This document shows positions 1 through 7,662 of a DNA stretch of 11,475 bases, piece by piece. Location: assembly GCA_003151215.1 (NCBI GenBank), contig PLXB01000094.1, forward strand, positions 10,597 through 22,071, written 5' to 3'. This stretch comes from Ignavibacteriota bacterium (GTDB lineage Bacteria > Bacteroidota > Kapaibacteriia > Palsa-1295). The notes beneath the pieces were generated by a model, which worked only from the letters and a program-made list of their open reading frames with translations, was not told the DNA's origin and made no database searches. Numbering within the stretch: the stretch's first letter is position 1; each line of letters starts with the position of its first letter. The position numbers and the translations under genes were made by a program.

Positions 1-511
1 TTAACTCCGCATAGGTTTTTGGTATTTCTTGCTCAAATATATCGAATAGCCCACAGATTTGACCACAAACAGCTGCTTGTTTTTCTAAGAAAGCGGGTAA
101 TTTTGAAAATGCTTCATTCATGCTTTTGATCAAAAGCTCAGCAAACCAGAGCTCCATGTGATAAGCAAAAACTTCACTCCAGATATCTTCTTGGATGCCC
201 TTTCCTTCAAATCTGGTTGCGTTCAAAGCACCGCAACGGAAATACAGTCCTATATATCCGTCGTTAAGAACTCCAGACATTAAATTTCCGCGATGACGAA
301 TTTTTTGGATTGCAAAGGATTTGTGCCTCATTAAATGAGTTTTGCCACTCCCTCGTCCGCCAAGAATAAGGATAGGTCCCGACGATGCAGGATTTAACTT
401 TCTTAGGTAGTCCTCCCCTCCGGGAAAATCAACCCAGTACTCAGAAATCATCTCATCGCTAAGATGACTTGCATAAGTAAGGGAAAAAGGATTATTGGGG
501 TTTTCTGTCAT
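1..511 (-). CDS. P-loop (ORC/CDC6-like) ATPase, N-terminal part only
   Basis: This is an open reading frame that starts at ATG 511-509 and runs uninterrupted off the left edge, so only about 170 residues are visible. It begins MTENPNNPFS. Residues 46-51 form a hydrophobic strand (PILILG) leading into a clear Walker A motif, GGRGSGKT, at residues 51-58, followed by HLMR. Walker B and the sensor motifs would lie further on or outside the window. The ATG overlaps the stop codon of the preceding PRTase-like gene (ATGA, 511-508), which indicates translational coupling and a shared function. I see a P-loop NTPase directly. The assignment to the ORC/CDC6-like ATPases that accompany PRTase-CE proteins rests on the Asn-Pro-Phe start, the GGRGSGKTHLMR loop and this neighbour, and is recalled family knowledge. 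The C-terminal half could carry an effector or DNA-binding domain that cannot be seen here. Confidence 0.75.
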   Translation of the reverse strand, partial: MTENPNNPFSLTYASHLSDEMISEYWVDFPGGEDYLRKLNPASSGPILILGGRGSGKTHLMRHKSFAIQKIRHRGNLMSGVLNDGYIGLYFRCGALNATRFEGKGIQEDIWSEVFAYHMELWFAELLIKSMNEAFSKLPAFLEKQAAVCGQICGLFDIFEQEIPKTYAEL

Positions 512-1461
512 GAATATACTTTCTGATATCTCCTGAATATTGGTGCCCAGTTTGATTCGGGATTATCGTACCAAAAAATGGGGAGCGTACTATCAGGTGT
601 ATTGTGAAAAAATCCAAAAAGAAATTGCCCATCAGAAAAGCCTAATGGGTTGCCCTCTAGCGCGTGCCCCTGAAGGAGTTTTTCTCCATAATATTGGACG
701 ATTTCTTTCGCAGTGTCTTTATTAATCTCTGGACCACAAGTTTGAAAAAATCGCGAATTTTCATCAAAGCACTTAAAGGAATCATCGAACTCCATTACCG
801 CCAAAACTTGCTTAAATTTAGTATTATCTCTTACATTTTTTAATGCGCTCGTAGATCCGAAAAGCACAAGATAAGAAGTTTCGGCTTCAGGATTGAGGCG
901 AGATAAGTCTTCCAAAATACTTTTAGAGTATTCAATGGCTTGATTACCACTTCCTGTAAAATCATCAAGTAGAACATAACGATTGATTTCAGGTTTAGCA
1001 AGTGAAGCGGGGCTTTCACTGCCATAGCGATTAAATATCTCATGTGTATTAATGAACAAGTTTTTATCGACGTTGTTTTCTTGTCTAAAATAATAGAGCA
1101 AATGGCTCCCACTTTCTGAAGGATTCCCGATTCCAAGGAACCGTGTTTGCTTCAACTCGGCTTCAAAAAGAGGATTAATCACTCCAGAGTCTATCGTATC
1201 GTGATTCGCTTTTCGAATCTTTTCAATAATCGAATATCTGAAAAGGTCTCGATAAAGCGATTTTAAAAGCTCCCTAATTTCACGATTCCCAAAATACATA
1301 AATTTAGTAAGTAAGAAGATCGCATGATCTTGCTGAAGTTCGGCTCCAAATTTTTCATCAGAAAAATTTTTCTCCCACTTATAAATTTGGGGCATTCTCA
1401 CTTTCCCTTCCCATAAAGTCTCTGTCAAAATTTTCAGAGTTTTCTCATACTTTGCTTTCAT
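508..1461 (-). CDS. Phosphoribosyltransferase-like protein (PRTase-CE type, conflict system)
   Basis: A 317-residue soluble protein with no signal peptide or membrane segment. The key motif is a hydrophobic strand with an acidic pair and a Gly-rich loop, YVLLDDFTGSGNQ (about residues 162-174). This corresponds to the PRPP-binding loop of type I phosphoribosyltransferases, but it is two residues shorter between the Asp pair and the Thr-Gly than in canonical enzymes. Other features recalled for the PRTase-CE family are a GNPSESGSHLLYYFR segment (112-126) and a C-terminal NTPDSTLPIFWYD segment (287-299). These match conflict-associated PRTase-CE proteins better than nucleotide-salvage enzymes. 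Substrate and reaction are unknown; a role as sensor or effector in anti-phage defence is an inference. An AGGA eight bases before ATG 1461 is a plausible ribosome site. The gene lies 18 bp after the DNA methyltransferase and overlaps the ATPase start by four bases, so all three are probably one operon. Confidence 0.75.
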   Translation of the reverse strand: MKAKYEKTLKILTETLWEGKVRMPQIYKWEKNFSDEKFGAELQQDHAIFLLTKFMYFGNREIRELLKSLYRDLFRYSIIEKIRKANHDTIDSGVINPLFEAELKQTRFLGIGNPSESGSHLLYYFRQENNVDKNLFINTHEIFNRYGSESPASLAKPEINRYVLLDDFTGSGNQAIEYSKSILEDLSRLNPEAETSYLVLFGSTSALKNVRDNTKFKQVLAVMEFDDSFKCFDENSRFFQTCGPEINKDTAKEIVQYYGEKLLQGHALEGNPLGFSDGQFLFGFFHNTPDSTLPIFWYDNPESNWAPIFRRYQKVYS

Positions 1462-1479
1462 TGAAATGTTCCTGATCTT

Positions 1480-2892
1480 TTAGCTTTTTTCAAAAACGTA
1501 AACCCATTCCCGTGTGATCAAACTTGCAGTTTTGTTTCTTTTTGTCATCAAACCTCTTGATCTGATTTCATCCACTACGCGCAGAATAGTACTAAAACCC
1601 AAACTCTCTATTGTTTTTGCAAGAAAATCCACCGTCATAAATTCGTGTCCACAAACATTATTATTTCCTGCGACAAGTACAAAGTATCCTCCCCTCTTCA
1701 AGAGTGAACATGCTTTCGTTAAAGCATCCTTCATCTCAATGAGGTATGTCGCAGAAATATGTGCTCGCAACTCATTTTCCTTCCTCGTGCGCAGGAGAAA
1801 CTCATCGGCTTCAGATATACCAGTTGTCGGAAAAGTCAAGTAATCACTTTTCCTGAAGTGCTCCCTACCGATACAACTGTCTTCTACAGAGGAAACATGA
1901 ATATTGTCAATTGCAGACATCCACGCCAAACTTAGTTTTGTGGCGCGAGTATATTTTTGTGCTCCTGAATACGGCGGTGATGTAATAATCATATCCACCA
2001 CATTTCTACGTTTTGAACGAGGATTATTCTCTCCGATTAATCTTGCATCATGAGCAATGTCAAATACTTTAACATTACCCCTTATCTTTTCTTCCAACTG
2101 CTCTACCCGCGTTTTGTTGTTCTCAACAATGTCCCAGAATTCAGAGAAAACATTAATGCGCTTCAATCTTCTTAATCGTATCTCTGCTTGTTCGCGGAGT
2201 GGGTGCCCGTCAGGATAGTGGCTGGCTCGCTGTCTGACCGGAACCGAGAGCCTCGGATCCGCTAAACTGACCTTTTTCAATAATGCAGAAAAGCATACTA
2301 AAAAAAAATCTCTATGGTAAACATTTCTGGTAGATTTTATCCCGGAAAAAATCCGGGCGAGTTGTCGCAGAATATGAGGATAAAACCAATATTCATAGTC
2401 TTCCTCAAGTGTAATGGGCAGAGCAGCTGTTATCGGGATGCGTGAGTATAGCCTCTCAATACTATTGCCTAAATTAGTCTTATTCAAAGGTGTGGTTTTA
2501 ACCCGTGAAATGATTCTAGCAAGAGGATTAACGTCTGCACCCATCGCATTTCGTCCAGCAATAAGCGACTCCAACAAGACAGTGCCCGATCCGCAGAATG
2601 GATCTAAAATTAAATCTCCACGTTTTGAAAAAATTTCGGATGAAAGGAAAAAATAAGGGATTTGAGCGAGTAGCTTGGCTGTATATGGATGAATCGAATG
2701 TGTCAGTCTCCCAGAATTTTCAAACGCCGGGCGCACGAGTGCTCTGAAATCTACCTCAATAGCAGTAGTTCCTGATGAGTAACTCTTTACCAGCTTCTCG
2801 ATTTCTTTTGAACTATCAAAGCTCATTTCAACATTCGGTATTAGATATTCAACAAAAATACGGCAGAATAGCCATTTTGCCCACGGAACCAC
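1480..2892 (-). CDS. DNA amino-methyltransferase (N4-cytosine or N6-adenine)
   Basis: A 470-residue SAM-dependent DNA methyltransferase. Residues 97-104 are DPFCGSGT, the SAM-binding motif I, preceded by a motif X-like HPYTAKLLAQIP (68-79). Residues 304-308 are TSPPY, the catalytic motif IV of exocyclic amino methyltransferases. The roughly 200 residues between them include a basic segment (214-245) and could hold the target-recognition region. A further strand, GGYFVLVAGN (401-410), and a C-terminal LITREWVYVFEK complete the fold. The SPPY form is commonest in N4-cytosine enzymes, but N6-adenine cannot be excluded. The start is GTG at 2892, chosen because an AAAGGAG sequence ends seven bases before it; an internal ATG (residue 23, base 2826) is the alternative. 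No restriction endonuclease is visible next to it. As first gene of the cassette with the PRTase-like protein and ATPase, it may mark self DNA, which is an inference. Confidence 0.85.
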   Translation of the reverse strand: MVPWAKWLFCRIFVEYLIPNVEMSFDSSKEIEKLVKSYSSGTTAIEVDFRALVRPAFENSGRLTHSIHPYTAKLLAQIPYFFLSSEIFSKRGDLILDPFCGSGTVLLESLIAGRNAMGADVNPLARIISRVKTTPLNKTNLGNSIERLYSRIPITAALPITLEEDYEYWFYPHILRQLARIFSGIKSTRNVYHRDFFLVCFSALLKKVSLADPRLSVPVRQRASHYPDGHPLREQAEIRLRRLKRINVFSEFWDIVENNKTRVEQLEEKIRGNVKVFDIAHDARLIGENNPRSKRRNVVDMIITSPPYSGAQKYTRATKLSLAWMSAIDNIHVSSVEDSCIGREHFRKSDYLTFPTTGISEADEFLLRTRKENELRAHISATYLIEMKDALTKACSLLKRGGYFVLVAGNNNVCGHEFMTVDFLAKTIESLGFSTILRVVDEIRSRGLMTKRNKTASLITREWVYVFEKS

Positions 2893-2940
2893 TAATATAC
2901 TCCTTTGTTAATATTCCGTATTATAAGTTGATTATAACTG
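2893..2940. promoter_or_regulatory. Divergent promoter region between the DNA methyltransferase and thyX
   Basis: This 48 bp gap separates two divergent genes and must hold or overlap the start signals for both, unless promoters lie inside the coding regions. It is AT-rich. It contains two direct copies of ATTATAA at 2920-2926 and 2931-2937, eleven bases apart, just before the thyX start. They could be promoter -10 material or an operator. I could not fit a well-spaced -35/-10 pair, so no precise promoter is claimed. Confidence 0.4.
2900..2906 (-). promoter_or_regulatory. Strong Shine-Dalgarno site of the DNA methyltransferase
   Basis: On the minus strand the bases read AAAGGAG, followed by a seven-base spacer (TATATTA) and the GTG start at 2892. 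This near-perfect site supports the GTG start over the internal ATG at 2826. Such a strong site is unusual in this window, where most other starts have none. Confidence 0.7.
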
Positions 2941-3861
2941 ATGGATTCGGAAAAAACTATTAGAACTTCGGTGACTGATATAGATTTGATTCTAGGGCGA
3001 TCATTTCCAGTTCTAGATGATGGTTTTGTTCGTGTTGTAGATTATATGGGCGGAGATGCTTCTATCGTTCAAGCTGCACGTGTATCTTATGGGGAAGGTA
3101 CGAAGAAGGTCAGTGAAGATCGTGGGCTTATACGGTATCTTATGCGCCACCAACATACTACACCTTTCGAAATGTGCGAAATTAAGCTGCATGTTCGTGT
3201 CCCTATGGATTGTTGGCGTCAGTGGATTCGTCATAGAACTGCAAACGTGAACGAATATTCAACGAGATATTCCATAGCCATTGATTCTGCCCAACGAACA
3301 CCCAAGAACCACTGGAGAAAACAGTCATCTACGAATAAACAAGGTAGCGAAGAATTCTTAACAGAGGATATCGGTCTCGCTTTGTCAGAGAATGAGGAAC
3401 AATTGCATAAACAAATTCGAACCCTATATGATGAGCGCATTGAGAAGGGTGTGGCAAGGGAGCAGGCGAGAAAAGATTTACCTCTTTCTACTTATACTGA
3501 AGCCTATTGGAAAATTGATTTGCATAATCTATTCCATTTCTTGGCTCTCAGAATGGATAGTCATGCACAGTATGAAATTCGCAGTTACGCAAATACTATT
3601 GGCCATGAGATAGTAAAAAAATGGTGCCCACTTGCTTGGGAAGCATTTGAGAGTTATCGATTGAACTCCTATAAATTTTCCGACCTCGAAATGAAAACTT
3701 TGAGTTATTTCATTAGACAAGATCGTGATGGAGCAAAAGAATTTCTATTGTCAGTAGGTTTTTTAACACTTGAAAATGGTGTTTTGAAACGTAGCAGGGA
3801 GATGATTGAATTAGAGAGCAAGCTACAGAATCTTGATATAAGTTTCGACTGGTCTGCTTAG
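2941..3861 (+). CDS. thyX: Flavin-dependent thymidylate synthase ThyX
   Basis: A 306-residue FAD-dependent thymidylate synthase. It converts dUMP to dTMP using methylene-tetrahydrofolate as carbon donor and reduced FAD, in place of classical ThyA. The family signature RHR-X7-S is intact: Arg97-His98-Arg99 followed by TANVNEY and Ser107. Other expected parts are MGGDASIVQAARVSY (36-50), HQHTTPFEMCE (70-80), ARKDLP (176-181), and the LRMDSHAQYEIRSYA helix (203-217) that supplies substrate-binding residues. A C-terminal extension of about 70 residues makes it longer than the compact bacterial forms, but similar lengths are known. No Shine-Dalgarno sequence precedes ATG 2941. The gene diverges from the DNA methyltransferase operon, so it may be co-acquired accessory DNA or simply the host's thymidylate synthase; whether another thyA or thyX exists in the genome cannot be seen. 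Confidence 0.95.
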   Translation: MDSEKTIRTSVTDIDLILGRSFPVLDDGFVRVVDYMGGDASIVQAARVSYGEGTKKVSEDRGLIRYLMRHQHTTPFEMCEIKLHVRVPMDCWRQWIRHRTANVNEYSTRYSIAIDSAQRTPKNHWRKQSSTNKQGSEEFLTEDIGLALSENEEQLHKQIRTLYDERIEKGVAREQARKDLPLSTYTEAYWKIDLHNLFHFLALRMDSHAQYEIRSYANTIGHEIVKKWCPLAWEAFESYRLNSYKFSDLEMKTLSYFIRQDRDGAKEFLLSVGFLTLENGVLKRSREMIELESKLQNLDISFDWSA

Positions 3862-4042: not shown

Positions 4043-4074
4043 GCATAGTGTTCTTTGATATGCTTTTTCTATGT

Positions 4075-4145
4075 TGCCTCGCCAGGACTCGAACCTGGAA
4101 CCCCCTGATCCAGAATCAGATGCCATACCATTAGGCCACGAGGCA
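4075..4145 (-). tRNA. tRNA-Gln (anticodon CUG)
   Basis: The reverse complement folds as a full 71-base cloverleaf. It has a 7 bp acceptor stem TGCCTCG/CGAGGCA, a short D arm GCC/GGC with a nine-base loop, anticodon stem TCTGA/TCAGG with loop TTCTGGA, a five-base variable loop, and T arm CCAGG-TTCGAGT-CCTGG. The anticodon CTG reads CAG (glutamine), and the T1-A72 end pair is typical of bacterial glutamine tRNAs. CCA is not encoded. The gene lies 45 bp after the dimethylformamidase-like gene on the same strand and may be read from the clpX transcript. Its 3' end faces the AT-rich accessory block. Confidence 0.95.
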
Positions 4146-4190: not shown

Positions 4191-5564
4191 TCAGTCACCT
4201 AAAACATACTTTTTAATGAAATTTTGTATTATCGTCGTAAAAACTTTATCTGTTCCTAAACCAGATGCACATTGAATAGAACCTGCTGCAAGGATCGCAT
4301 TCCTATCCGAAAGATTTTTCAGCAGAATATCTCCACCACCTTCTCCATTCCATCTTGTATCTGTCCCGTCATAATTCTTTCCTGTTCCTTCAGAATCACA
4401 ATTCATACCGTGTGCAAGGATCTCTCCATCAGGCGATCTCTTCACTTTATCGGTTTCAGCACCCGAAATCCCAAGTTCATTTATTCCATGTATTCCAAAG
4501 AGGTCGCCATCGCGAACATTACTCCCCTCTAAGAGCCAATGCCCGGCATTCGTAACTTTATATGGTGCGAAGGTGTGCATTCCGGATCCGGTGTAGCCCT
4601 CACCGAATAGAGAGTTCTGATGTCGGAAATGATGTTTCCACATCCCTCCATATTCTAAAGAATCATCGAAGAATGTCAGATCTTTTCTGCATTCCATTCG
4701 GGTGTGATCTTCATGCCATCTCATACTCCAGTAATATTGATTCGCACCCAGAGAGATAAGGGAGCTGTCCCTTGTGAGAAAATGCAACGTATTATCATAC
4801 ATCTTCCGCGAAATATATTCGCAATGATAGACCAAAACCATCATTTTTGCACCCATCCAATTTTCATGGCGATCTTCCAGAAAATAATCGGGTATAATAT
4901 TCACGCTTTCATATTGCTTGGAAAACCAGTTGAAGGCATTTGCTTCTACCTGAATATCATGATTGAGTTGAAAAGCATTATTCGGACGCTGCGAAGAAAC
5001 ATAATAGACGGTCTTCGCTTCCAGATTATTTTGATAAAGTGACTTGCCGCCATAGGGATTATAAGCATTCCACGTGCTCACTGGTGCAATAATAAGAATA
5101 TCGGCTTTCTTGCGAGAGCCAACAATAAAATAGATCGGATATTCAATATTCCCTTCTTCGGATTTCAGCAATGCCTGATAATACCCCGGCTTCGTTTCAG
5201 GTTCAAGTGTGATCTCAAGCGTTTTTTCCCATCCGCAGCCATGCTCCGATGCATTGGATTTCCGTACTTGTACTACTTTAGAGAACTCTTTCGAAAGTAT
5301 ATCCTCAAATTCATATGGCGCTTTCATTCTGCGAAGCAAGAGTGAGTTGCGCTCGTACTCGGAATATAAAAAGAATAAGATCTTTTCACCCGGCAAATAA
5401 TAATATTTATCCGAATAACCTTCAATGCTTGCAGGATCCATGTCCGGACTATGTTCATTTCTGACAAAGGAGACAAATCTGAAATGGTAATAATGGTAGA
5501 ACAAGAAAGCAGCAATAAGCACAAGAAGAGCTATCAAGAAAACTATGATTGCTTCAATCGTCAT
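4191..5564 (-). CDS. Membrane-anchored N,N-dimethylformamidase large-subunit-like protein
   Basis: A 457-residue protein with one N-terminal hydrophobic segment (about residues 4-23) and no clear cleavage site, so it is probably anchored in the membrane with the rest outside the cytoplasm. Residues 55-150 look like a beta-rich domain ending YPIYFIVG. The remainder matches the domain found at the C-terminus of the N,N-dimethylformamidase beta subunit: KADILIIAPVSTWNAYNPYGG (153-173), VLVYHCEYISRKMYD (243-257, the family's HDEYW-like region) and SLGANQYYWSMRW (271-283). Known dimethylformamidase is an iron amidohydrolase with tyrosine and glutamate ligands; the match of those ligands here is not established, so activity and substrate are unknown. 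It starts six bases after the stop of the methyltransferase gene and is probably in the clpX operon. Confidence 0.75.
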   Translation of the reverse strand: MTIEAIIVFLIALLVLIAAFLFYHYYHFRFVSFVRNEHSPDMDPASIEGYSDKYYYLPGEKILFFLYSEYERNSLLLRRMKAPYEFEDILSKEFSKVVQVRKSNASEHGCGWEKTLEITLEPETKPGYYQALLKSEEGNIEYPIYFIVGSRKKADILIIAPVSTWNAYNPYGGKSLYQNNLEAKTVYYVSSQRPNNAFQLNHDIQVEANAFNWFSKQYESVNIIPDYFLEDRHENWMGAKMMVLVYHCEYISRKMYDNTLHFLTRDSSLISLGANQYYWSMRWHEDHTRMECRKDLTFFDDSLEYGGMWKHHFRHQNSLFGEGYTGSGMHTFAPYKVTNAGHWLLEGSNVRDGDLFGIHGINELGISGAETDKVKRSPDGEILAHGMNCDSEGTGKNYDGTDTRWNGEGGGDILLKNLSDRNAILAAGSIQCASGLGTDKVFTTIIQNFIKKYVLGD

Positions 5565-5570
5565 TGATTG

Positions 5571-6353
5571 TTAAGAAGAAAGCTGCCCGAAAGAAACTTC
5601 GGTTTGATAGAGCATCTCGATTTTTCCATTTTTTTGATGCCGGCTAAAAATCTGTTTCAACTCGGCGAGCATAGGTAGGAAATGCGGCGAATCTGTTTTC
5701 GGAACATAAGAAGATGAGAGCAGCCTGCCTTTCAATCCGTCGTAATCAAATGACTGGCTATTCGAAAATAGCCGGAATGTAAATCCCCGTTCAAGAAATA
5801 AATGTCTGATATTTTCCTTAATGTCTTTTTCAGCTACAACAGGGTATCCTACGCCATATTGCAAAAGGAGAGCTTCGTATTCCTGCAAAAAAAGAGAAGC
5901 ACCCAAAAGTCTTTCATTCCAGAAAAGAACTACCCAGCCATTTTGTTTGATAATTCGCCTGAATTCCTTTTTTGTCTCTTCGATCTGAAACCAATGAAAG
6001 GCCTGTCCTGCAATAAGAATGTCAATAGCAGCATCAGAAAGAGTCGTTTTTTCTGCAGTCCCATCGATACTATGGAATTTCGGATAAGCGGAAAGGTATT
6101 CTTCGCCGGCTTCGCGCATTTCTTTATTCGGCTCTACTCCGAATACTTCATTTCCGTTTTTCAAAAATAATTCTGAGGAAATGCCGGTACCCGAACCGAT
6201 ATCGGCAATAACCGAAGATGGCTCCAGACCTGTTGCCCCTGCAAGAAACGGAATAAAAGTATCAGGATAATGCGGACGATATTTCCGGTAATTCTCCACC
6301 CGATCGGAAAATCGCTCCGTTGGCTTCAAAAAATCATGCTGCTTGTTTTTCAC
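5571..6353 (-). CDS. Class I SAM-dependent methyltransferase (Methyltransf_11 type)
   Basis: A soluble class I methyltransferase. Counting from GTG 6353, motif I is VIADIGSGTG (48-57), the acidic end of strand 2 is FGVEPNKEM (71-79), and the post-I region is DGTAEKTTLSDAAIDILIAGQAFHWF (97-122). The AFHWF sequence is typical of small-molecule methyltransferases of this group. A YRKYRPHYP segment (22-30) near the N-terminus is also characteristic. The substrate cannot be told. The reading frame stays open to 6431, but that start would overlap clpX by 98 bases. GTG 6353 (260 residues, 20-base overlap with clpX) or TTG 6329 (252 residues, just after the clpX stop) is more likely; neither has a clear ribosome site. 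It lies between clpX and the dimethylformamidase-like gene on the same strand. Confidence 0.8.
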   Translation of the reverse strand: MKNKQHDFLKPTERFSDRVENYRKYRPHYPDTFIPFLAGATGLEPSSVIADIGSGTGISSELFLKNGNEVFGVEPNKEMREAGEEYLSAYPKFHSIDGTAEKTTLSDAAIDILIAGQAFHWFQIEETKKEFRRIIKQNGWVVLFWNERLLGASLFLQEYEALLLQYGVGYPVVAEKDIKENIRHLFLERGFTFRLFSNSQSFDYDGLKGRLLSSSYVPKTDSPHFLPMLAELKQIFSRHQKNGKIEMLYQTEVSFGQLSS

Positions 6354-7662
6354 CGCTGCGTATAAGAACTGGCGGCACGACCCCTTCGACTGATAGCCGG
6401 GTAACGATGCATTTCTCAAGCTTCTGATCATCCGGCAATGAGAACATCAGTTCTGTCAGCACACTTTCCATGATCGAACGCAATGCGCGCGCGCCTGTTC
6501 CACGCTTCACCGCTTTTTCGATGATGGCTTCGAGAGCATCCTGTTCGAAGATCAGGTCGACGCCTTCCATGGCGAAGAGCTTGCGGTATTGCTTAACCAG
6601 CGCATTCTTCGGCTCGGTAAGGATCTGCATCATTGCTTCTTTCGAAAGAGCTTCGAGCGCAGTAAGGACAGGAAGACGACCGATCAGTTCAGGAATAAAA
6701 CCAAATTTCAGAAGATCTTCCTGCTCGACAAAATGAAAGACATTCCGAACATGCTCGGATTCTTTCGAAGGAAATTCAGCGCCGAAACCGATCGGATTTT
6801 TATGCAAACGTTTCTGAATGATTTTTTCTAATCCTTCGAATGCGCCGCCGGCAATAAAGAGAATATGTTTCGTATTGATATAGACAAGGGGCTGCTCGGG
6901 ATGCTTGCGTCCGCCTTTGGGGGGAACTAAGGCAACAGTGCCTTCCAGTAATTTCAGAAACCCCTGCTGAACCCCTTCACCTGAAACATCACGAGTAATG
7001 GAAGCGCTATCGCTTTTCCTGGCAAGTTTATCTATCTCGTCAACATAAACAATGCCACGCTCAGCGCGAGGCACGTCATAATCCGCAGCCTGAAGTAAAG
7101 CAGATAGAATCGATTCGACATCATCACCGACATACCCGGCCTCGGTAAGTGTTGTTGCATCGGCAACGGCAAAAGGAACATCGAGAATTCGAGCAAGTGT
7201 CCGCGCAAGAAGGGTCTTCCCTGTACCTGTCGGACCGAGCATGAGAATATTCGCTTTCTCGATCTCCGTATCTTCAAAACCCTCAACTCCAAGGATCGTC
7301 TCGGATTCAATGCGTTTAAAATGATTATAAACGGCAACGGATAGTACCTTTTTCGCCTGTTCCTGCCCGATCACGTAATCGTCAAGCTCTTTTTTGATCG
7401 CGCGCGGAGTAAAATGCGAAATACCGGCTCTGCGGGCATTTGCCTTCGTCGTGTATTGCGGCAAATGTGAACGAAGAAGCTCGACATTATTGGCCGAGCA
7501 AATATCGCAGATGAATGCCGAGCCATACGGCGCACTGATAAGTGTCGTTACTTCATTCGCCGAGCGCAAACAGAATGAACAATGCGGCATAGCGCCACTG
7601 CCGTCATCACTCCCTGATCCCCCATTTTTAGTCTTGCGAGTCCGTATTTTCTTTTCTTCCAT
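6334..7662 (-). CDS. clpX: ATP-dependent Clp protease ATP-binding subunit ClpX
   Basis: A 442-residue AAA+ unfoldase that recognises tagged proteins and feeds them to ClpP. Counting from ATG 7662: a C4 zinc-binding domain (Cys28, Cys31, Cys52, Cys55), DDYVIGQ (94-100), Walker A GPTGTGKT (143-150), pore-1 loop GYVGDD (176-181), Walker B IVYVDEID (204-211), the RKH pore motif (252-254), the IGF loop that docks to ClpP (291-293), and sensor II GARALR (390-395). All key residues are present, so it should be active. A TTG two codons upstream could start it, but the ATG fits better because a promoter box lies immediately before it. clpP is not adjacent. It is the first gene of a leftward group. Confidence 0.97.
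   Translation of the reverse strand: MEEKKIRTRKTKNGGSGSDDGSGAMPHCSFCLRSANEVTTLISAPYGSAFICDICSANNVELLRSHLPQYTTKANARRAGISHFTPRAIKKELDDYVIGQEQAKKVLSVAVYNHFKRIESETILGVEGFEDTEIEKANILMLGPTGTGKTLLARTLARILDVPFAVADATTLTEAGYVGDDVESILSALLQAADYDVPRAERGIVYVDEIDKLARKSDSASITRDVSGEGVQQGFLKLLEGTVALVPPKGGRKHPEQPLVYINTKHILFIAGGAFEGLEKIIQKRLHKNPIGFGAEFPSKESEHVRNVFHFVEQEDLLKFGFIPELIGRLPVLTALEALSKEAMMQILTEPKNALVKQYRKLFAMEGVDLIFEQDALEAIIEKAVKRGTGARALRSIMESVLTELMFSLPDDQKLEKCIVTRLSVEGVVPPVLIRSGEKQAA

Follow-up and report, generated by a model that had tools for sequence, protein, structure and literature searches.

A candidate four-gene anti-phage cassette pairing an ORC/CDC6-like ATPase and CARF6 with a putative PRTase-CE effector

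What kind of system combines a DNA methyltransferase, a phosphoribosyltransferase-like protein and an ATPase? The question is raised by an 11,475-nucleotide stretch from an Ignavibacteriota bacterium (contig PLXB01000094.1, positions 10,597 to 22,071; henceforth the window), which opens with three tightly packed minus-strand genes encoding these proteins. The initial annotation of the locus had suggested a gene triad that marks self DNA, possibly a restriction-like system without a classical endonuclease. Our analysis points instead to the first three genes, the third of them cut by the window edge, of a four-gene system directed against phages. Its switch would consist of an ORC/CDC6-like ATPase together with a CARF6 protein, and a PRTase-CE enzyme would act as effector on the nucleotide pool, a reading to which we give an even chance of being right. 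The direct basis of this reading consists of the protein families, the gene order, intact catalytic motifs, the CARF motif in relatives, the folds of structure models and the swapping of effectors between related loci.

The families named in the initial annotation proved correct. The second protein matches the Pfam PRTase-CE profile PF24390 along positions 3-253 of 253 (3e-62, 211 bits against a cut-off of 27), and residues 7-157 of the ATPase match positions 1-145 of the 571 in the ORC/CDC6-like profile PF24389 (1e-30), the fragment amounting to roughly the N-terminal quarter of what is mostly a 640-720 aa protein in relatives. The methyltransferase matches N6_N4_Mtase (PF01555, 7.8e-13) and, over residues 59-446, the PADLOC model MTase_II (PDLC03322, 2.1e-36); its TSPPY motif may indicate a preference for N4-cytosine. 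The layout read earlier, an 18-bp gap followed by an ATGA overlap, agrees with the open reading frame (ORF) coordinates and the sequence, and the three motifs reported then, TSPPY, a DD-F-TGSGN loop of the phosphoribosyl pyrophosphate (PRPP) type and Walker A, are all in place (Table 1).

Whether these genes form a recurrent unit was addressed through their homologues. A protein search with the PRTase yielded 1340 relatives among 2071 candidates, and we examined a set of 67 loci made up of 60 loci on genome contigs and three on IMG/VR contigs, both retrieved by pattern scans, which reach close relatives only, and of four of 12 plasmid matches; the set contains the near-copies L041/L042, L018/L022, L051/L065 and L052/L067. 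Profiles seeded with proteins of the window and of S. meliloti served to classify their ORFs. In 59 of the 67 loci all four genes are present exactly once, and all 59 are ordered methyltransferase, PRTase-CE, ORC/CDC6, CARF6 (our G5) on one strand, with median intergenic gaps of -1, 1 and -4 bp along the cassette (mechanical starts). The window genes follow this same order on one strand. Among the other loci, the order is kept in L002, L010 and L017, where genes are broken up between two frames, whereas L032, L037 and L046 stop short of CARF6, L029 has no methyltransferase call and L064 is a fragment. The suggested triad stands as regards its order but not its extent, since the unit comprises four genes with CARF6 following the ATPase. 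The cassette recurs in many bacterial phyla with its gene order unchanged. One four-gene copy (L023) lies on a 6.8-kb contig labelled Heimdallarchaeota and is either a genuine archaeal copy or a binning error.

The catalytic motifs are largely intact in these relatives. With the window included, the PRPP-type loop DDxx[AG][ST]Gx[QT] is found in 64 of 67 (L010, L021 and L026 deviate), and SPPY and DPFxGxGT in 63 and 62, respectively, of the 63 methyltransferases of sufficient length. The Walker A lysine is present in 54 of 61 full-length ATPases and replaced by arginine in seven, all actinobacterial (GRTH in place of GKTH on the contigs of L015, L029, L031, L033, L041, L042 and L058), and the D230/E231 pair is kept in at least 95% of relatives. 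Judged from these residues, ATP hydrolysis is likely in most relatives, and one lineage may bind ATP without hydrolysing it.

The fourth gene product of the relatives matches the PADLOC model CARF6 (PDLC01914) over its full length at 4e-112, a family reportedly defined by Makarova et al. in their 2020 CARF survey. Its structure model shows two CARF-like halves with likeness to the nucleotide-sensing Can1, to Csm6, which binds cyclic tetra-adenylate (cA4), to Card1 and to SAVED, and the CARF motif (D-x-T-G) is invariant in the relatives; a search of solved structures by sequence gave CARF6 a chance-level row only. The CARF reading relies on the PADLOC match, on the D-x-T-G motif and on VIA-align. 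Compared with other CARF6 contexts, CARF6 here has, in the relatives, a gene of its own that follows those for an ORC ATPase and a PRTase, with no nuclease domain found.

Next we considered which parts of the unit are constant. An ORC/CDC6-like protein was detected at E 1e-10 in 10 of 297 genomes from the order of G001 (the Sinorhizobium medicae genome of L008), at most four candidates being scored per genome. CARF6 adjoins or is fused to this ATPase in all 10 loci (by its own profile in G001 and G582, by PADLOC in the other eight), and the enzyme partner varies: it is a PRTase in six (G001, G582, G368, G490, G583 and G405, by its own profile), a Ser/Thr kinase fused to the ATPase in two (G561 and G365), an HD-CE protein (PF24391) in G594 and a calcineurin-like phosphoesterase (PF00149) in G554. 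G368 has an HD/HD_assoc protein nearby as well. In G561 kinase, ORC and CARF6 form a single 1239-aa protein (L182:6494-10213), and the locus L172:6787-11450, from a separate sample, carries kinase-ORC, CARF6 and a methyltransferase as a split operon, a kinase-effector version of the switch. When 274 genomes from the class of G016 were searched with PDLC01925 for Rosetta-stone fusions, the single match was a split pair of kinase-ORC and CARF6, the full fusion being the L182 protein. A kinase-AAA-CARF-wHTH architecture has been described (PMC4012209). At L174:8071-13923, HD-CE, ORC/CDC6, CARF6 and an m5C DNA methylase share one operon, adjoined by a flavin-dependent thymidylate synthase (ThyX) of the cassette clade defined below. 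Read most simply, this swapping and the correlations given below assign the switch to ORC and CARF6, the effector role to the enzyme that varies and a looser, accessory place to the methyltransferase. Three loci (L178, L181 and L184) carry PRTase, ORC and CARF6 with an HD/HD_assoc protein, a PfkB-type kinase or a HAD hydrolase in place of the methyltransferase; plausibly these extra proteins are nucleotide or sugar-phosphate enzymes.

The methyltransferase behaves as the loosest partner. Among 57 complete loci, the distance matrices of PRTase, ORC and CARF6 correlate mutually at r 0.83-0.87, and that of the methyltransferase correlates with the three at r 0.63-0.65. A DNA methylase accompanies five of the 10 ORC loci, two being of the N4/N6 type and three of the m5C type; in the other five, the methyltransferase profile and two query methylases matched no ORF of at least 70 aa, Pfam having been run on one or two neighbours each only. 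Since the methyltransferase switches class or is not found in related ORC-CARF6 loci, self-marking by a restriction-like system is the poorer fit; a better one is an effector that targets nucleotides under the control of an ATPase/CARF switch. No nuclease family was found among the proteins of the four-gene unit, in which the PRTase fills the downstream slot beside the methyltransferase. Methylation looks accessory to the switch.

These findings bear on a second modification-based scheme. BREX and MADS systems carry DNA methyltransferases, BREX one of the PglX/DUF1156 type alongside PglZ or a DUF499 ATPase, and MADS comprises the gene set mad1-mad8. The cassette might work like them by modification and exclusion, with the methyltransferase marking self, an ORC/CDC6 ring scanning for unmarked DNA and blocking replication, and PRTase-CE and CARF6 as regulators. 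It shares with BREX and MADS an ATPase of the STAND/ORC-Cdc6 type and a DNA methyltransferase, which is called in 65 of the 67 loci (all except L029 and the fragment L064). Several BREX and BREX-related proteins are indeed STAND/ORC-Cdc6 ATPases (PMC12839542). When the three window proteins were scanned with PADLOC, a partial match to mad2 (methyltransferase, 2.1e-9) and a match to mad8 (0.0039) appeared, and the ATPase of L006 matches mad8 weakly (1.3e-4). However, the mad2 match is confined to methyltransferase residues 26-125, and that to DUF1156 is likewise weak and partial (7.2e-07, 27.7 bits against a cut-off of 1000), which falls short of a BREX assignment for a window whose left flank is unseen; Pfam found no PglZ, helicase or DUF499 among the 10 window proteins, the cassette having PRTase-CE and CARF6 instead. 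Moreover, the methyltransferase co-varies least, changes class and is not found by profile and two queries in half of the related loci, and the PRTase slot can be taken by nucleotide-acting enzymes or kinases. We consider a BREX- or MADS-like mode of action unlikely.

If CARF6 is a sensor, where could its ligand come from? One source might be the cassette itself, with PRTase-CE joining PRPP and a base into a nucleotide messenger that CARF6 senses. The intact PRPP loop, the predicted role of CARF6 as a nucleotide sensor and the fact that none of the four genes belongs to a cyclase family are in keeping with this proposal, but in L174, L179, L172, L182 and L183, where no PRTase was found, CARF6 and ORC persist beside HD-CE, a phosphoesterase or a kinase. 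Because of this persistence a PRTase-made ligand is improbable in general, and we regard the messenger proposal as decidedly unlikely. Alternatively, CARF6 might sense cyclic oligonucleotides made in trans by a host type III CRISPR Cas10 or by CBASS cyclases, as the likeness of its model to cA4-binding Csm6, Can1, Card1 and SAVED receptors would allow. From the 60 genome loci, 50 were submitted for Csm1 and SMODS and 49 for the Cas10 palm domain, 49 genomes being searched each time. The Csm1/Cas10 model exceeded its cut-off in none of the 49 carrier genomes (weaker matches in four) and SMODS in four of 49. The palm profile PF22335, tried as a further test for type III CRISPR, was set aside as uninformative: it matched an E. 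coli control too, probably through GGDEF cyclases, and none of its matches, found above cut-off in nine of 49 genomes and at E 1e-3 in 16 of 49, scored higher than 38.9 bits. Most carriers therefore have no obvious source of cyclic oligonucleotides among the Csm1/Cas10 and SMODS families, other cyclase families not having been searched, and supply in trans strikes us as very improbable.

We then turned to the enzyme. The PRTase model resembles UPRT and XGPRT and has a type I PRTase fold with a DD...SG PRPP loop, a likeness that could also suit ordinary nucleotide salvage or housekeeping, with the PRTase and ThyX as metabolic enzymes and the methyltransferase as a stray. ThyX belongs to a normal enzyme family, and the window ThyX groups with Bacteroidota-type ThyX. 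By contrast, no match of the window PRTase to solved PRTase structures was found by sequence, even by profile search, and neither profile matches placing it in ordinary salvage nor a lack of conserved neighbours came to light. Its distribution is patchy (close relatives in two of the 297 genomes of one order, centre genome included), some relatives cluster across phyla in the PRTase tree, and carriage extends to plasmids and viral contigs; neither PRTase-CE nor CARF6 matched anything in the INPHARED phage collection. A salvage function thus appears extremely improbable. With ORC/CDC6 and CARF6 as the core, PRTase-CE is most likely the effector.

PRTases are regarded as the probable effectors of retrons and of a DprA-PRTase system that has been tested (PMC9122126). 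Type III-A retrons and DprA-PRTase would share this role with the cassette. The window PRTase indeed matches the PADLOC model PRTase_III-A (6.7e-35), yet it is flanked by a methyltransferase and an ATPase and not by a reverse transcriptase; Pfam found neither reverse transcriptase nor DprA among the 10 window proteins, and Rfam found no retron RNA (E 0.1), the left flank being unseen. Beyond the cassette, PF24390 matched 98 of 296 genomes from the phylum of G011, a Bacteroidetes metagenome-assembled genome (MAG), at E 1e-3 and 15 over cut-off. In the 12 of these 15 that were examined, no listed ORF matched the methyltransferase, ORC or CARF6 profiles (L094, L095 and G011, the last covered by L007, being left out), which shows that distant PRTase-CE proteins occur in other settings, fused to AAA, HD or wHTH domains or beside a NADAR gene. 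At L112:8503-10120 the PRTase-CE gene overlaps a NADAR-domain gene, possibly a separate two-gene conflict system, and at L111:6500-10680 a 1060-aa protein with an AAA-type ATPase domain and a C-terminal PRTase-CE is followed by a PADLOC PDC-S02 protein.

From these elements we infer a defence function with DNA sensing, ligand gating and attack on nucleotides, and a role for ThyX. ATPases of the ORC/CDC6 type have been called a mainstay among conflict systems, and the prediction is that they encircle DNA as rings (PMC10853773). In the proposed mechanism, the ATPase would sit on DNA and report the state of invading DNA, with the methyltransferase, as an accessory to the switch, marking host DNA or setting what counts as foreign. 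CARF6 would bind a nucleotide ligand whose supply need depend neither on the PRTase nor on a Cas10 of the host. Once activated, PRTase-CE could act through its PRPP-type site, cleaving or swapping the glycosidic bonds of free nucleotides or else depleting PRPP, and would thereby halt phage DNA synthesis at a cost borne by the cell. In Hyphomicrobiales, ThyX may support thymidylate supply or tune a thymidine-nucleotide signal.

The case for ThyX comes from that order. Of the 13 Hyphomicrobiales loci, 12 have a thyX gene close to the cassette (split in L002), and the remaining one is the fragment L064. None of the 54 other loci has one, a group that takes in MAGs whose order is not stated as well as 15 loci where the flank on a side is shorter than 2 kb. 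ThyX was present in 12 of 17 genomes tested, and the nine Hyphomicrobiales genomes among these have exactly one ThyX and also a ThyA each; for this reason the cassette ThyX of Hyphomicrobiales is an extra enzyme. In the 297-genome sample, ThyX exceeded its cut-off in five genomes, two of which, G001 and G594, are among the 10 with ORC (Fisher p 0.0097); a ThyX of uncertain context lies on a short contig of G458. G594 pairs its ThyX with the HD-CE variant, and this ThyX forms one clade (100/97) with the 11 full-length Hyphomicrobiales cassette ThyX. The PRTases of ThyX-bearing cassettes fall into separate lineages (six changes of ThyX label, five of them forced, window counted), and a cassette outside the 67 loci, L173 of G582, lacks ThyX.

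For the window the ThyX evidence is of another kind. Its ThyX, considered as a proven cassette member, was rejected: it is about 45-54% identical in local alignments to the full-length Hyphomicrobiales cassette ThyX and lies outside their clade, inside a Bacteroidota-like one (100/100). L007, the nearest tree neighbour of the window cassette, has no ThyX alongside. ThyX occurs at E 1e-60 or better in 41 of the 296-genome sample, and around the 18 closest (61-66% identical) no cassette gene was found in the stretch fetched (14-15 kb in 17, 5 kb in one). The window thyX may belong to the cassette or may simply be native to the host.

A bolder version of the model would make ORC/CDC6 and CARF6 a universal two-protein immune switch run by its own nucleotide ligand, probably a signal based on thymidine or another deoxynucleotide and not a Cas10 cyclic oligoadenylate, into which any effector (PRTase-CE, HD-CE, phosphoesterase or kinase) could be plugged, the Hyphomicrobiales ThyX, atop ThyA, serving as signal-pool or antidote enzyme; we rate it as rather unlikely. 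A parallel to the nucleotide-targeting mechanism as such is Clover, in which the dNTPase CloA senses dTTP and is governed by it and by a thymidine-based signal, that of CloB (PMC12265719). Clover shares the principle of a nucleotide-attacking enzyme restrained by nucleotide signals, with thymidine nucleotides central, and differs in having two genes, for an HD effector and a nucleotidyltransferase, with no ATPase, CARF or methyltransferase (PMC12265719).

Several points weigh against our reading of a nucleotide-targeting effector behind an ORC/CDC6-CARF6 switch. The CARF6 gene and about three-quarters of the ATPase lie beyond base 1 of the window, where CARF6 is predicted by analogy with relatives. 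By E-value, the best Foldseek row for CARF6 is an unrelated CobK reductase (3.7e-04), and only five rows reach 1e-3; the Foldseek TM-scores of the PRTase model are low, and a fold match alone proves no activity. Since the Walker A lysine is arginine in seven of 61 ATPases, hydrolysis is possibly not universal. The methyltransferase, near-universal in close relatives, must have a function, which the model leaves vague. Finally, we found no experimental test of this four-gene set in the open-licence literature.

The wider setting is one of nucleotide-targeting effectors, among which Nicastro, Burroughs, Iyer and Aravind (NAR 2023, doi 10.1093/nar/gkad879) reportedly named Calcineurin-CE, HD-CE and PRTase-CE. 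With such systems the window shares PF24390 and PF24389, and related loci share HD-CE (PF24391) and the phosphoesterase (PF00149); the consecutive numbers PF24389-PF24391 fit one source. In the open-licence literature we found no account of the methyltransferase-PRTase-ORC-CARF6 set, and none of the constancy of ORC-CARF6 or of the ThyX clade, Nicastro 2023 and Makarova 2020 being outside its scope. The three-gene guess is replaced by a defined four-gene unit with a constant ORC/CDC6-CARF6 core and a swapped enzyme. Two questions become testable, namely which ligands CARF proteins bind beyond type III CRISPR and how PRTase effectors act on nucleotides, and the Hyphomicrobiales ThyX link makes thymidylate the first place to look.

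Table 1. Positions of the cassette genes, their motifs and the adjoining thyX in the window
Feature	Position	Strand	Remarks
DNA methyltransferase gene, N4/N6 amino type	1480-2892	-	470 aa, GTG start; cassette gene 1; ORF and Pfam
Methyltransferase motif I DPFCGSGT	2581-2604	-	
Methyltransferase TSPPY	1969-1983	-	
Methyltransferase/PRTase-CE intergenic gap	1462-1479		18 bp
PRTase-CE gene, predicted effector	508-1461	-	317 aa; ORF and Pfam
PRTase-CE PRPP-type loop DDFTGSGNQ	940-966	-	
ATGA start/stop overlap, PRTase-CE stop and ATPase start	508-511	-	4 bp; read from sequence
ORC/CDC6-like AAA+ ATPase gene, 5' part only	2-511	-	170 N-terminal residues; frame open at window edge
ATPase Walker A GGRGSGKTH	335-361	-	
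Divergent spacer between methyltransferase and thyX starts	2893-2940		48 bp
thyX, flavin-dependent thymidylate synthase	2941-3861	+	PF02511 4.2e-53; TIGR02170 6.6e-56

Within the divergent spacer, a ribosome-binding-like AAAGGAG precedes the GTG start of the methyltransferase; no sigma-70-like site was found there, and a promoter scan near thyX did not rise above shuffles. Beside the thyX end of the region, at 4073-4145 on the minus strand, lies a tRNA-Gln(CTG) gene that is a possible insertion site. A second methyltransferase ORF (5571-6431) overlaps, as called, the end of clpX by 98 bp (6334-6431), and its true start is probably further downstream. The window ClpX is 94% identical to one labelled Candidatus Kapaibacterium and 93% to one labelled Ignavibacteriota, which makes a Kapabacteria-like host probable. 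At 4191-5564 on the minus strand, a protein with a DMFA2_C domain (N,N-dimethylformamidase beta C-terminal-like) and a hydrophobic N-terminus is encoded, an odd neighbour for clpX.

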